NCBI GenBank assembly: GCA_029558905.1
Contig: JAKQCX010000027.1
Coordinates: 248,001 to 312,000 of the forward strand
Length of the DNA stretch: 64,000 bases
Source of the DNA: Pseudomonadota bacterium
GTDB lineage: Bacteria; Pseudomonadota; Gammaproteobacteria; Burkholderiales; Thiobacillaceae
Direction: 5' to 3'
Each line of letters begins with the position of its first letter. The stretch's first letter is position 1. The position numbers and the translations under genes are program-made. The notes beneath the pieces were generated by a model. That model was not told the origin of the DNA. It saw nothing but the letters and a program-made list of their open reading frames with translations, and searched no databases. This document shows positions 52,939 to 58,319 of the stretch, in pieces.

Positions 52939-53628
52939 TCATCTGGCCGGGGGCAGGCCGGGCAACACGATGGGGGCGGGGAGGCTGCCGAAAGGATTCG
53001 CCACCCATCCGCCCCAGGTGGGGCCATAGGTCATGGGGTTGGCCATGGTGGCCGCCCAGTTGCCGTACCAGGCGGGATTCAGGGGTGCCAGCAGGGAGTT
53101 CCACAGCTTGGGGTCGAAACCGGCGGTGCCCCATTGCGCATAGACGTTGGGGTTCAGGGCATTGAGGCCGGTGCTGATAAGCCTGGGGTCCAGGGGCAGC
53201 ATCATCCAGCGCATGAGTTTGGCCGGGTCCATGAGGATGTAACCGACGGCATTCAGGAACTGTGGATCCATGAGGGTCATGGCCCAGGTCGTTGCCACGC
53301 TGGGGTCCAGGAGGCGGGCGTAGTTGGCGTAGGCCTTGGGGTCCATGGCGCTGGTCAGGGACTGGGTGTAGAGCTTCGGGTCCATCATGGCGCCGATGGC
53401 GGTTACTAGGAAGCTCGGATCGGTCACCTGATTCAGGGCCGCCACGAACTTCTTCGGATCCACCAGCATGTCGGCATTGCGTGTGAAATCGGAAAGATGG
53501 CGCACCCATGCGTCCGGGCTGGACGGCATGGCGGTGTCCGCGGAAGAAGCCGATGCGGTTTCCGCAGCCAGGGCTTGGGGAATGGGGGCTACCAGCATCA
53601 GGGCCAGCAGCAGGGGGGTAGGTTTCAT
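52939..53628 (-). CDS. Exported protein built of about thirteen 13-residue Asp/Asn-Pro repeats
   Basis: 229 residues. A signal peptide (about 1-21, ending PQALA) is followed by a short linker. From residue 57 a D/N-P pair recurs at 57, 70, 83, 96, 108, 121, 134, 147, 159, 172, 184, 197 and 211, a spacing of 12-14. A unit reads roughly (M/L)DPxxYxxxLxxx(M/L), for example MDPKAYANYARLL or MDPQFLNAVGYIL. Early units have Asp, later ones Asn with Trp/Tyr/Gly. The pattern suggests stacked short helices, each capped by D/N-P. I recognise no named family. GAGGAG lies 7 nt before ATG 53628. It is 96 bp downstream of the SulP fusion gene on the same strand. Confidence 0.82.
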   Translation of the reverse strand: MKPTPLLLALMLVAPIPQALAAETASASSADTAMPSSPDAWVRHLSDFTRNADMLVDPKKFVAALNQVTDPSFLVTAIGAMMDPKLYTQSLTSAMDPKAYANYARLLDPSVATTWAMTLMDPQFLNAVGYILMDPAKLMRWMMLPLDPRLISTGLNALNPNVYAQWGTAGFDPKLWNSLLAPLNPAWYGNWAATMANPMTYGPTWGGWVANPFGSLPAPIVLPGLPPAR

Positions 53629-53724: not shown

Positions 53725-56184
53725 TCAACCTCCCCGTGGCCCACGCCAGACGGGTTCGGCCTGTCCGGCCGCCCGATTGATCTGACGTGACAGTACGAAC
53801 AGCAGATCCGATAGACGGTTCAGGTATTGCGCCAGGCGGGTGGAGATGAGGTCCGCTTCTCCCAGGCGTACCATGCTGCGTTCCGCGCGGCGACAAACGG
53901 TTCGGCAGATGTGCGCCAGCGCCGCCGCGCGGGAGCCGCCGGGCAGCACGAATTCCCTCAGGGGAGGCAGTTGCCCGTTCAGATGGGCCAGGACCTCGTC
54001 CAGCCTGAGCACATGCTCGCGGGTAATCTGGATCTGGTCGGGCCAGGCCAGCTCGGCCCCCAGATTGAACAGGTCATGCTGGATGTCGATCAGCAGCCCG
54101 CGGACGTCCGTGGTCAGGGGTTCGGCCAGCAGGGCACCGATCTGGCTGTTGAGTTCGTCGACCTGGCCGATGGCCTCGATGCGAGGATCGCTCTTGGCCA
54201 GGCGCGTGCCGTTGGCCAGGCCGGTGCTGCCGTCGTCGCCGCTGCGGGTAACGATTTCGTTCAGGCGCTGGAATCCTGCATCCGCCGACGGCTCGGCGGC
54301 GGCGGGCGGGGCGGGGCGCATGTCTGCCGTTCTAGGCTCGCCATTGGGCAGGGCACGCTGGCATTCCCGGAAGATGCGGGCCGTGCAGTTGCGACAGATC
54401 TCCGTGTCCAGGCGTGGATAGATGCCGGCAATGGCATCCGGCTTGTGCGGGAAGACATTGTCCACACCGATTTCCATCTGGTAGCCCCCGCGTTTCAGCA
54501 TGTCACAGGCCGCCTCCCGCACGCCGCAAAGATACAAGGCCCCGCCCAGCCGGTGCCGGCGCTTGGCCTCGCTGGCCAGCAGCTCCGCGCCGGCCAGGTC
54601 GATGGTGTTGATGCCCTTGGAAAACAGCAGCAGATGCTTTTGCGTGGGTACGCTGGCATCTACGGCGGCGAAGGCATACTGGATGTGGTCCACGGCGCCG
54701 AAGAAGATGGAGCCTTCGATGCGCAGCATCTTCATTTGCGGGCAGATGGGCTGCGTGCCGTTTTCCACCACGAATTTGCGGCGCGGATCGTCGAGCGCGG
54801 AGGCGTCGGGCACCAGGGCGCGGATAGCCGGCCGGGAGGTTTTGGAGAGATAGAAGATCAGGGACACCAGAATGCCGAAGAAGATGCCCTTTTCCAGGTC
54901 GATGACGGTGCCGAAGAAGCTCACGCCCAGGACCGCGGCCTCGTTGCGGTGTGCCTTGAGGATGGCGCCGATGTGGTGGAAGTCGATCAGGTTCCAGGCC
55001 ACCAGGAACAGCACCGCAGCCATGGCGGGGATGGGCAGGTAGGCCGCCAGGGGGGCCACCAGGAACAGGATGAGCAACAGAAAAATGGCTGAGAACACCG
55101 CCGCCAGGGGCGTGCGCGCGCCGGATTCATAGTTCACGCCGCTGCGGTTGAAGGAGCCGGAGGAGGCGTAGCCGGAGAAGAAGCTGCCCGCCAGGTTGGA
55201 CAGGCCCTGGCCGATGAACTCCTGGTTACCGTTGATGTGCTGCTCCGACTTCACGGCGATGGAGCGTGAAATGGATACCGCCTCGGTCAGGGCCAGGACG
55301 GTCACCGCCAGGGCGGAGAAAAAGGTGTTCTTCAGGCTGGCCAGGGAGAAGTCCGGCATGGACAGGGGTGGCAGGCTGGCCTCCAGGGCTCCCACGGTAT
55401 GGATGCCGGTGACTTCCTGGCCAAAGCTGTTGTTGAGCCAGACCCCGACGATACCGCCCACTACCATGGCGACGATCATGTAGGGCACCTGCCTGAGGTA
55501 CTTGCGCGCCAGGATGCCCGCCACCAGGGACACCACGGCCACGCCCGTGACATAGGGATTCAGGTCGCGCAGATGGGTGAGCAGGAGACCCGCCACCTCG
55601 TAGGCGGGGGTGCCGCGGGGGATATCCAGCCCGAAGAAATTCTTCACCTGGCTGGCGGCGATGAGCAGCGCCGCGCCGGCGGTGAAGCCGATCACCACGG
55701 TGTGCGAGATGAAGTTGACCAGGGCCCCCATCTTGGCCAGACCCATGATGAGCTGGAACAGGCCCGTGAGGAAGGTGAGCGTCAACACCATCTCGATGTA
55801 CTGGGGCGTGCCCGGCTCGGCATAGGGCGACACCGAGGCGAACACCACGATGGAGATGGCCGTGGTGGGGCCGGAGACCAGGTGCCAGGACGAGCCGAAC
55901 AGGGCGGCGACGATGGTGGGCACCATGGCGGCGTACAGGCCGTATTCCGGTGGCAGGCCGGCAATGGTGGCGAAGGCCACGGCCTGGGGCAGGACGATGA
56001 GTGCACCCGAGAAGCCGGCGATGCCATCCCGCCTCAGATTGTCCCGGTTCACCCGGTGCTGCCATTTCAGGAAGGGCAGGAACTGGTATACCCACAAGTT
56101 GCAGGCCAGAAGGTTGGAAAATTCGGCGTCGAGGCGGCGCCTGTCGAACAGCGTGGAGAGACGGGGGATCTTCATCCAGGTCAT
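53725..56184 (-). CDS. SulP anion transporter-STAS protein fused to a PduO-type cobalamin adenosyltransferase
   Basis: 819 residues in one frame. Residues about 40-450 are a SulP/SLC26 membrane domain (LPQAVAFATIAGLPPEYGLY, SSGSFNRSGVN); about 484-596 a STAS domain; about 597-639 a linker with CRNC...RECQ and an Ala/Pro stretch. Residues about 640-819 are a complete ATP:cob(I)alamin adenosyltransferase with TRSGDDGSTGL, RIEAIGQVDELNSQIG, CRRAERSMVRL and YLNRLSDLLFVLSR. The first part should carry sulfate, bicarbonate or a similar anion; the last transfers adenosyl to reduced corrinoid in the cytoplasm. The ATG at 56184 overlaps the DUF1841 stop (ATGA). No stop codon or frame change separates the parts. 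Confidence 0.88.
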   Translation of the reverse strand: MTWMKIPRLSTLFDRRRLDAEFSNLLACNLWVYQFLPFLKWQHRVNRDNLRRDGIAGFSGALIVLPQAVAFATIAGLPPEYGLYAAMVPTIVAALFGSSWHLVSGPTTAISIVVFASVSPYAEPGTPQYIEMVLTLTFLTGLFQLIMGLAKMGALVNFISHTVVIGFTAGAALLIAASQVKNFFGLDIPRGTPAYEVAGLLLTHLRDLNPYVTGVAVVSLVAGILARKYLRQVPYMIVAMVVGGIVGVWLNNSFGQEVTGIHTVGALEASLPPLSMPDFSLASLKNTFFSALAVTVLALTEAVSISRSIAVKSEQHINGNQEFIGQGLSNLAGSFFSGYASSGSFNRSGVNYESGARTPLAAVFSAIFLLLILFLVAPLAAYLPIPAMAAVLFLVAWNLIDFHHIGAILKAHRNEAAVLGVSFFGTVIDLEKGIFFGILVSLIFYLSKTSRPAIRALVPDASALDDPRRKFVVENGTQPICPQMKMLRIEGSIFFGAVDHIQYAFAAVDASVPTQKHLLLFSKGINTIDLAGAELLASEAKRRHRLGGALYLCGVREAACDMLKRGGYQMEIGVDNVFPHKPDAIAGIYPRLDTEICRNCTARIFRECQRALPNGEPRTADMRPAPPAAAEPSADAGFQRLNEIVTRSGDDGSTGLANGTRLAKSDPRIEAIGQVDELNSQIGALLAEPLTTDVRGLLIDIQHDLFNLGAELAWPDQIQITREHVLRLDEVLAHLNGQLPPLREFVLPGGSRAAALAHICRTVCRRAERSMVRLGEADLISTRLAQYLNRLSDLLFVLSRQINRAAGQAEPVWRGPRGG

Positions 56185-56603
56185 TTCGTTTCCAGACAAT
56201 CGAGATAGGCCGCGGCATCCGGGGGTCGCTGCTGCCGCTGGGCATGCCAGAGCATCTCCGCCATGCAGTCCATGAGGGCGTGTTGGGCGGCGTGTGTGTC
56301 CCCCAGTCGGGCGACCAGTGTCTCATAGCATGCGCGCACGCCCGGCGGCTGATCGATGGACAGTTGCTCGGCAACGGACAGATGCATGGCCAGGTGCAGG
56401 AAGGGATTGGTCTGTCCCAGCTCGGGCAGCCAGTCCCGCGACCGATAGCGTTCCGGCTGCTCCAGGACGGGGTGGTATTCGGGATGTCGGTGCATGTGTT
56501 CCAGCGCCATGCCCTCCAGGCCGCTCAGAGGCCGACCTGTCCTGTACTTGTCCCAGACCTGGAAAAAGAAGTCCCGGGCCTGGTCACGGCTGGGGTTAAA
56601 CAT
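56181..56603 (-). CDS. DUF1841-family protein
   Basis: 140 residues. It begins MFNPSRDQARDFFFQVWDKY, the family hallmark, continues HMHRHPEYHPVLE and has the conserved block NPFLHLAMHLSVAEQLSIDQP; the C-terminus is helical (MAEMLWHAQR). The family is common in beta- and gammaproteobacteria and uncharacterised; the repeated histidines hint at metal binding. The gene overlaps FIST upstream by 8 bp and the SulP fusion downstream by 4 bp, so all three are coupled. Confidence 0.88.
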   Translation of the reverse strand: MFNPSRDQARDFFFQVWDKYRTGRPLSGLEGMALEHMHRHPEYHPVLEQPERYRSRDWLPELGQTNPFLHLAMHLSVAEQLSIDQPPGVRACYETLVARLGDTHAAQHALMDCMAEMLWHAQRQQRPPDAAAYLDCLETK

Positions 56604-57690
56604 GCGCGTCCGCGGCGTAGCCCAGGCCCAGCACCACGCTGTATTGCAGCAGACGGTTGGCCCCGTCCAGATGGGCGATCTCGCCATTGCCATAGAAGCC
56701 GATCAGGGGCAGCTCCGGGTAGCGCTGGACCAGGACATGTATGTCGCGGTCCTCGCCGCTGTAGAACCATGGGCCCCGTCCCAGGCAGGGGAACATAAGC
56801 GCGAAGGCGGGGCTGTCGCACCGGCCCGCGGCGATGCGTGCGAGCATGGCGGCCATGTCCCGCTCGGCGGCCTGGGGCTGGCGCAAGGCCCAGAATAGCT
56901 CCTGGCCCGCCTGCAAGCGTCCCGCCACGGTCACGGAGGCATCCTGGATGTTCACGCCCACCACGGGCAGGAGGTGGAAGCGGCCTTCATCCAGGGCATG
57001 TTCGCGCTGGCCGTAGGTCACGCCTGCCAGGAGCAGGTGCGTGGGGATGTGTTCCGACGTGCGGATGGGCAGGGGCAGTTCCCTGATCAGGGAGTCCAGG
57101 GCGGTATCCCCTCCCACGATACGGATGTCATGGCCCTGCACCTGATCCAGTCTGGCGGGCAGAGAGATGGGGTGGATGCCCTGGGATACGCCGATGCGCA
57201 GTTCGATTCCCCGCAGACACAGCTGGCAGCGGCCCGAGGGTTGACGACGCGCGCCCGTCCATACGGAATAGGGCCCACGCCCCGTGGCATCACCGGATAC
57301 TCCGCCGAAACGCGGGCCACCGGCATGCAGCCAGTGCAGGTCCAGGGCATTGGGGGCGCACAGGGTCAGACGGGTTTCCGTCTCGTCGCGCGCGGGATGC
57401 AGATGCATGCCGGCACCGAACACCATGGCTGCAGCGGCCGGAGCGTCCAGCACCCAATCCGCCTCGGTGAACACGCCGGCGGCCGTGCATCCCGTCACCT
57501 GCAGGCAGCCGGCGGTCCGGGTGGCCGCCGCCATGGCCGCCCGGGGATCCTGGGCGAAGTCGGAGGTAAGGTACAGCAGCACCGCCTGGGGATGGTCCAG
57601 TCCCGCGGACTCCATGGCCGCCCTGACCGCCTTGGCAGCCAGGGCAGGATCGGCGGTGCGACCCCGGGCCAGCCCCGTGGCTACCTTCAC
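56596..57690 (-). CDS. FIST sensory-domain protein
   Basis: 364 residues. FIST N domain: VKVATGLARGRTADPALAAK, VLLYLTSDFAQDP and GCTAAGVFTEADW; FIST C domain: AGQELFWALRQPQAAERDM, FALMFPCLGRGPWFYSGEDRD and LPLIGFYGNGEIAHL. FIST proteins are cytoplasmic ligand-sensing modules, often linked to signalling or methyltransferase genes, with amino-acid-like ligands proposed. This is a stand-alone version. GTG 57690 overlaps the nth stop (GTGA) and has GGGAG 8 nt upstream; a GTG at 57714 is an alternative. Confidence 0.87.
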   Translation of the reverse strand: MKVATGLARGRTADPALAAKAVRAAMESAGLDHPQAVLLYLTSDFAQDPRAAMAAATRTAGCLQVTGCTAAGVFTEADWVLDAPAAAAMVFGAGMHLHPARDETETRLTLCAPNALDLHWLHAGGPRFGGVSGDATGRGPYSVWTGARRQPSGRCQLCLRGIELRIGVSQGIHPISLPARLDQVQGHDIRIVGGDTALDSLIRELPLPIRTSEHIPTHLLLAGVTYGQREHALDEGRFHLLPVVGVNIQDASVTVAGRLQAGQELFWALRQPQAAERDMAAMLARIAAGRCDSPAFALMFPCLGRGPWFYSGEDRDIHVLVQRYPELPLIGFYGNGEIAHLDGANRLLQYSVVLGLGYAADAHV

Positions 57691-58319
57691 GCAGTCTTCT
57701 CCCGGTATTCGCACAGGTCATGGAGCACGCAAGCGCCGCAGGCCGGCCTGCGTGCCTTGCACACATAACGGCCGTGCAGGATGAGCCAGTGATGCGCATC
57801 CCGCTTGAACTCTGCCGGCACGCAGCGGAGCAGCCTCTTCTCCACTTCCAGCACGGTCCGGCCCGGGGCCAGGCCCGTGCGGTTGGCCACCCGGAAGATG
57901 TGGGTGTCCACGGCGATGGTGGGTTCGCCGAAGGCGATGTTGAGGATCACGTTTGCGGTCTTGCGTCCCACGCCGGGCAAGGACTCCAGGGCCATCCGGT
58001 CCCGTGGTACCTCGCCCGCATGCCTGTCCAGCAGGATCTGGCAGGTGGCCAGGAGGTTTCTGGCCTTGGTCTGGTACAGGCCGATGCGCCGGATGTGCGT
58101 CTTCACCCCCGCCTCGCCCAGGGACAGCATGGCCGCGGGGGTGGCTGCCGCGGCAAACAGGGTGGCCGTGGCCAGGTTCACGCTCCTGTCCGTGGCTTGC
58201 GCCGAGAGCATCACCGCCACCAGGAGCTGGAAGGGCGTGGCGTAGTGCAGTTCGGTGGCGGGGGCAGGGTTGGCTGCCCGCAAGCGCTGGAAGATTTCCC
58301 GGCGTATACCCGCGTTCAT
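57687..58319 (-). CDS. nth: Endonuclease III
   Basis: 210 residues, as in E. coli (211). Helix-hairpin-helix and catalytic Lys in LPGVGRKTANVILN, catalytic Asp in IAVDTHIFRV, and the [4Fe-4S] loop C-x6-C-x2-C-x5-C (CKARRPACGACVLHDLC). It excises oxidised pyrimidines and nicks the strand. It follows rsxE by 19 bp, the classic rsx-nth linkage of gammaproteobacteria, and overlaps the FIST gene. Confidence 0.97.
   Translation of the reverse strand: MNAGIRREIFQRLRAANPAPATELHYATPFQLLVAVMLSAQATDRSVNLATATLFAAAATPAAMLSLGEAGVKTHIRRIGLYQTKARNLLATCQILLDRHAGEVPRDRMALESLPGVGRKTANVILNIAFGEPTIAVDTHIFRVANRTGLAPGRTVLEVEKRLLRCVPAEFKRDAHHWLILHGRYVCKARRPACGACVLHDLCEYREKTA

Follow-up and report, generated by a model that had tools for sequence, protein, structure and literature searches.

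Fusions of SulP transporters with carbonic anhydrases were reportedly described by Felce and Saier in 2004. Such fusions, as well as SulP-can2 gene pairs, are also treated in PMC6458275. The gene analysed here resembles these systems in that a SulP transporter is joined to an enzyme (or, in the gene pairs, adjacent to one). It differs from the SulP-carbonic anhydrase proteins in that its enzyme has no evident link to the anion, and in that the STAS domain is retained and the enzyme is placed after it. No carbonic anhydrase domain was matched in the chain by Pfam or NCBIfam at a threshold of 0.001. A SulP-carbonic anhydrase fusion was also looked for among three SulP paralogues of the same genome (contig C17) and was not found.

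The enzyme in question is a PduO-type cob(I)alamin adenosyltransferase (ATR). According to PMC3603451, Mycobacterium tuberculosis needs a PduO-type enzyme to use B12 supplied from outside, and the authors speculate that it acts sequentially with a transporter. In that organism, however, the enzyme is a protein separate from its ABC-type transporter, whereas the fusion is one SulP chain. No description of a SulP-adenosyltransferase fusion was found among the titles and beginnings of abstracts listed from the open-access PMC literature. The attachment of an enzyme or sensor domain to SulP is already known, and the apparently new element is ATR as the partner.

The fusion lies in a 64,000-nucleotide stretch of a Thiobacillaceae genome (GenBank assembly GCA_029558905.1, contig JAKQCX010000027.1), referred to as a whole as the window. 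The relevant features are:

53725..56184, minus strand: SulP-STAS-ATR fusion gene, 819 aa, ATG at 56184-56182, stop at 53727-53725
54931..56037, minus strand: Sulfate_transp (SulP permease) domain, residues 50-418 (Pfam PF00916, 3e-89)
54439..54738, minus strand: STAS domain, residues 483-582 (Pfam PF01740, 1.7e-7, profile positions 9-104 of 106)
54328..54414, minus strand: residues 591-619, Cys tail typical of this SulP subfamily (C597, C600, C608); unfused SulP proteins end alike
54256..54327, minus strand: residues 620-643, the actual linker, which differs in length and sequence across the alignment
53782..54255, minus strand: PduO-type ATR domain, residues 644-801 (PF01923, 7.5e-55)
56181..56693, minus strand: DUF1841 gene directly upstream of the fusion (PF08897, 4.7e-58); the true start may lie inside the ORF
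56596..57714, minus strand: FIST-domain gene upstream of DUF1841 (PF08495 and PF10442)
52939-53628, minus strand: ORF downstream of the fusion, no Pfam or NCBIfam match, signal-peptide-like start by eye

Minus-strand translation of positions 53725-56184 yields 819 residues with a single stop, located at the end; the plus strand of the same region is interrupted by stops. The first-pass annotation, which did not mention the strand, had described an uninterrupted frame for an SLC26/SulP permease, a STAS domain and an intact PduO-type ATR. Translation and Pfam analysis confirmed this, and all three motifs quoted there (TRSGDDGSTGL, VDELNSQIG and YLNRLSDLLF) are present in the translated protein. 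The ORF list places the beginning of the frame at an upstream TTG (56199; 824 aa), but the ATG at 56184 appears the likelier start, since it overlaps the stop codon of the DUF1841 gene as ATGA. The permease domain scored 299.9 bits (cut-off 23.2; profile positions 1-376 of 380), the STAS domain 31.4 bits (cut-off 22.6) and the Cob_adeno_trans domain (PF01923) 186 bits (cut-off 24; profile positions 1-170 of 171).

The C-terminal part also exceeded the cut-off of NCBIfam TIGR00636 (PduO_Nterm, cob(I)yrinic acid a,c-diamide adenosyltransferase; 192.4 versus 108.45 bits). Its closest solved structure is PDB 2zhy, a PduO-type enzyme of Burkholderia thailandensis (1.4e-67), with homology extending from residue 639 to 817. 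Both proteins contain the full-length domain, which in 2zhy is a free protein and in the fusion forms the tail of a membrane transporter. A structure model built from 11 aligned rows was poor (mean pLDDT 43.7), and one built from 62 rows was usable (mean pLDDT 73.8). In a Foldseek comparison the ATR part of the model matched 2zhz and 2zhy with TMt values of 0.94-0.98 and 64-65% identity (2zhy: 64% over 170 aligned columns, TMt 0.95). The best matches of the front part were SLC26 structures; the whole-chain rmsd to these was 14-21 Å, and for this reason the relative placement of the domains was left unread.

The conserved motifs of PduO-type enzymes serve in ATP and corrinoid binding. The motifs TRxGDDG, VDELN, R...CRRAER and YLNRLSD are all present in the window protein and align with those of 2zhy. 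Median dN/dS values, calculated from 55 pairs, were 0.166 (membrane part), 0.149 (STAS), 0.232 (Cys tail) and 0.308 (ATR); the membrane part, STAS and ATR are therefore all constrained, ATR less so. Profile coverage, dN/dS and the aligned motifs rule out a decayed ATR in the window protein, in line with the earlier statement that the enzyme is not decayed. The fused ATR probably works as an enzyme.

As in other SulP/SLC26 transporters with STAS (BicA, DauA and the SLC26 structures), Sulfate_transp is combined with STAS in the fusion, which differs from all of these by the additional C-terminal enzyme domain. The score against the NCBIfam sulP subfamily model TIGR00815 (359.5 bits) was under the cut-off of 380.45. 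No substrate was assigned because the equivalog cut-offs of BicA (NF050096; 175.3 bits, cut-off 880) and DauA (NF008660; 249.3 bits, cut-off 614) were not reached. The SulP part would move an inorganic anion, for which bicarbonate and sulfate are candidates. SulP genes of autotrophs have been linked to bicarbonate through gene neighbourhood in PMC6458275 and PMC11423575. Sulfate export is equally thinkable for a sulfur oxidiser, if such a lifestyle is assumed. In Thiobacillus thioparus DSM 505 (L126:5968-8327), a related SulP gene overlaps a gene resembling those for CcmM and gamma-carbonic anhydrases, whose product scored under every equivalog cut-off of these families; this is followed by a gene resembling hydrogenase 4 subunit B and proton antiporters.

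Between the transporter and the enzyme, the first-pass annotation had placed a Cys/Pro linker. Only part of this interpretation holds: the Cys-containing stretch is the SulP tail, and the linker proper comprises approximately residues 620-643. The motif C597-x2-C600-x7-C608 was rejected as a fusion linker and assigned to SulP because unfused SulP proteins stop just after it. Among 80 relatives, most unfused SulP proteins end shortly past C-x2-C-x7-C, mostly with LPNGExR or LPDGTPR, and those of G017, G019 and G022 (74-75% identical) stop exactly where the fused proteins continue. The SulP protein of L105 continues beyond the Cys tail into another domain. Two SulP-STAS-Usp proteins of the window's family (L031:694-3348 and L032:1270-4065) consist of a related SulP with a similar Cys tail, followed by two universal stress protein stretches where the fusion has ATR; the tail may be a favoured attachment point for added domains. 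The residues C597, C600 and C608, as well as C481 (54742-54744), are kept in every row having the respective column in an alignment of 62 fused and unfused sequences, and form a candidate metal or redox site spanning STAS and the tail. The Cys block has a pLDDT of 80-87 in the 62-row model. The true linker, of unequal length across the fused proteins (about 20-30 residues), is probably disordered according to the same model, in which residues 622-650 have a pLDDT under 50. Its median dN and dS (0.94 and 1.23) derive from about 15 codons and are near saturation.

An uninterrupted full-length fusion is present in ten other genomes (77-81% identity), and in 11 of 117 genomes of the family when the window's own is included; ten of these belong to genus g1 and one (G030) to g9. 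A twelfth fused genome, G013, contains a piece cut by a contig end (residues 597-817). The eight fused records with titles are all metagenome-assembled genomes (MAGs): four named Betaproteobacteria bacterium, two Thiobacillus, one Tepidiphilus and one plain bacterium. Two reservations accompanying the initial description, namely that a sequencing error might hide a stop or frameshift in the linker and that homologues might always be two separate genes, are removed by the ten further genomes, in which the same frame is intact.

Among the matches listed for a class sample of 369 genomes (at most two candidates scored per genome), the only fusion was the window's own. Among those listed for an order sample of 399 genomes (at most five candidates per genome), a stop-free stretch from STAS to ATR was seen in G000 and G011 alone; in G688 the span holds one stop, and SulP and ATR are two neighbouring genes. 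No fusion outside the window's family was observed among the matches listed for these two samples. Long frames around ATR were considered as further fusions in 20 regions, 18 of which have an ATR match, and were rejected, as in none of the 18 are the two joined. The SulP gene is located less than 1 kb before ATR in 12 of them (ten of family f13, G036 and G061), 1.6 kb before it in G056 and about 4.9 kb in G041; it is absent from the examined ATR region of G786, G826, G773 and G050.

The gene order in the window is FIST, DUF1841, SulP-ATR, and FIST and DUF1841 genes precede SulP in a number of relatives. Close contacts between separate SulP and ATR genes take several forms. TGATG marks the overlap of SulP stop and ATR start in G036, in G033 the two overlap as separate genes, and in G061 the ATR match starts within the SulP stop. 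In all ten f13 loci, which were selected for long frames or adjacency, SulP lies less than 250 bases before ATR, and DUF1841 is also present in six. In L080, a MAG with the seemingly doubtful title Bordetella parapertussis, the ATR match starts 13 bases after the SulP stop. A DUF1841 gene directly before or near an ATR gene was observed in several families (L189, L202, L043, L048 and L054), and this neighbourhood is a possible lead to the function of DUF1841.

All 12 fused ATRs fall into one clade (95/92, starred) of the 39-row ATR tree, which indicates that the fused ATR originated once. They are joined in the next starred set up by G002, G032 and G035, in which the ATR gene is located behind FIST-DUF1841 with SulP absent between them. 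Only the label for fused rows was read in this tree, since the label for adjacent pairs covers only six pairs, all in the window's family, that overlap or abut, and the rows labelled as separate include side-by-side pairs of f13 and L080. In the SulP tree, built from 50 rows by a quick method, all 11 fused sequences group together with a support of 90, not starred, and are joined with G017, G019 and G022 at 100, starred; G030 is placed differently in the two trees. Judged from these comparisons of sequences and gene order, a join of neighbouring genes seems the simplest origin of the fusion, because SulP and ATR are separate elsewhere but are neighbours or overlap in several lineages. The SulP gene may have moved before ATR just prior to the join, or the SulP-ATR pair may be older; the nearest ATRs in the tree, which have no intervening SulP, give no direct support to an adjacent pair immediately preceding the fusion.

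The B12 context was analyzed in 29 genomes, comprising all 23 of genus g1 and six genomes of the family chosen for having ATR. PF01923 is present in 18 of the 29, in one copy each; in all 12 fused genomes this single match is the fused ATR. The unrelated family PF02572 (CobA/BtuR) is present in 17. The two families complement each other: CobA was matched in 11 of 11 genomes without PF01923 (as a contig-end fragment in G017 and in two pieces in G012), but in only six of 18 with it (as contig-end fragments only in G020), the remaining 12 having no CobA match, and no genome lacks both (Fisher p 0.0004, uncorrected for kinship). The CobA match is absent in seven of the 12 fused genomes (G000, G009, G013, G014, G015, G018 and G030). 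A missing CobA may reflect an assembly gap (completeness: window's genome 89.8%, G018 71%, G013 84%), but it is also missing in the more complete G014, G015 and G009 (100, 99 and 96%). The closest unfused SulP orthologues occur in genomes (G017, G019 and G022; L019-L021) that have CobA instead of a PduO-type ATR, a swap of unrelated enzymes inside one genus relative to the fused relatives.

A use for adenosylcobalamin exists in these genomes, since class II ribonucleotide reductase (TIGR02504) was above the cut-off in 26 of the 29 (598 bits in the window's genome). A second, weaker reductase match below the cut-off, present in many of these genomes (378 bits in the window's), is probably a class I enzyme, in which case the need for class II and adenosylcobalamin may be conditional. 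CobS is present in 13 of the 29 genomes, including the window's and G015. A search of the window's genome with PF02310 (B12-binding; MetH and methylmalonyl-CoA mutase were sought) returned two matches, none above the cut-off. No cobalamin riboswitch was detected in the window at Rfam gathering scores, where three tRNAs were the only matches.

Taken as a whole, we consider it reasonably probable that this is a membrane-tethered, working ATR that resulted from a join of neighbours and has no tight coupling to transport. The one gene would give a single bifunctional inner-membrane protein, whose SulP-STAS part would transport an inorganic anion. Suspended in the cytoplasm by a flexible linker, the ATR domain would adenosylate cob(I)alamin with ATP, and the adenosylcobalamin would be supplied mainly to class II ribonucleotide reductase. 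A single event in one lineage of Thiobacillus-related betaproteobacteria would have created the fusion, loss of the SulP stop joining SulP to a neighbouring ATR gene behind DUF1841. The tether probably does no harm or brings a slight benefit through fixed stoichiometry or membrane location, and would involve no allosteric coupling. Of the ideas in the first-pass annotation, a join of neighbouring genes agrees best with the comparative data, but its retention across a clade, with dN/dS values of both halves well under 1, makes a mere relic improbable.

A functional coupling, in which ATR, by binding ATP or corrinoid, regulates the transporter via STAS, or the transporter places ATR where corrinoids enter, is in our view doubtful. 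Retention of the fusion across the whole clade and the adjoining SulP and ATR genes of several other lineages are consistent with it, as are two points made in PMC6458275, namely that STAS is thought to be regulatory and that SulP-carbonic anhydrase neighbourhoods and fusions are read as functional links. Nevertheless, a variable linker predicted to be disordered is ill-suited to a tight allosteric joint, and the nearest SulP orthologues (G017, G019 and G022) lack the ATR domain. In a sample of 20 loci, one per family, SulP was located within approximately 6 kb of ATR in just one, compared with five for DUF1841. The earlier ideas coupling B12 chemistry to anion transport likewise found no direct support, as nothing was found that ties ATR to transport.

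It is unlikely, too, that the chain is cut after synthesis, or that a second product is started internally, so that two ordinary proteins result from a neutral join. The predicted disorder of the linker counts in favour of this reading. The former ATR start of G030 still carries an in-frame ATG, preceded by GGAGG, and the window gene has an ATG at residue 622. However, no conserved internal start was found near the joint in the 11 fused rows. Four of these 11 genomes (G011, G014, G015 and G020) lack any in-frame ATG, GTG or TTG from the Cys motif to GDDG, which leaves none of these codons for starting a separate ATR of normal size there. In all 11 rows an in-frame ATG encodes a STAS methionine (residue 562 in the window), from which translation of a shorter chain could begin; unfused homologues share this region, and no start signal marks it. 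In G014 and G015, which also lack CobA, the only ATR found must be part of a longer chain, either the whole fusion or one begun within STAS.

PduO-type ATRs are trimers and SLC26 proteins are dimers, a symmetry mismatch that would leave room for larger assemblies. It is nevertheless very improbable that ATR is kept as a trimerising module instead of an enzyme, its trimers cross-linking SulP dimers into larger membrane assemblies. The first, N-terminal ATP motif is altered in two fused proteins, to VPRSGDDG in G001 and VARGGDDG in G021, and both genomes also have CobA, which speaks for this reading. Against it, the motif is intact in the remaining fused proteins, no other ATR was found in seven of the 12 fused genomes, and the association with CobA (two of four fused genomes with CobA versus none of seven without, G020 being set aside) involves too few cases to judge. 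Finally, an assembly or sequencing artefact that removed a stop between two genes, for which no supporting point was found, is ruled out for practical purposes by the ten further assemblies.

In G014 and G015 the fusion is the only ATR of the two families searched (PF01923 and PF02572), and a common start codon for a separate enzyme of normal size is lacking, so coenzyme B12 formation appears to be completed on a transporter chain there. Annotation should take into account that a gene named sulfate permease can hold the only ATR of a genome. The clade also makes a question testable: does it serve a function when a housekeeping enzyme is attached to a transporter unrelated to it, or is this a harmless accident that becomes irreversible once no stand-alone copy remains? 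A more far-reaching and distinctly unlikely possibility is a membrane coenzyme-B12 factory, in which a single type of chain, pairing through SulP and trimerising through ATR, would build a larger array, and the supply of adenosylcobalamin would be controlled by the anion gradient or the state of STAS. If true, this lineage would have made an anion transporter the home of its ATR enzyme.
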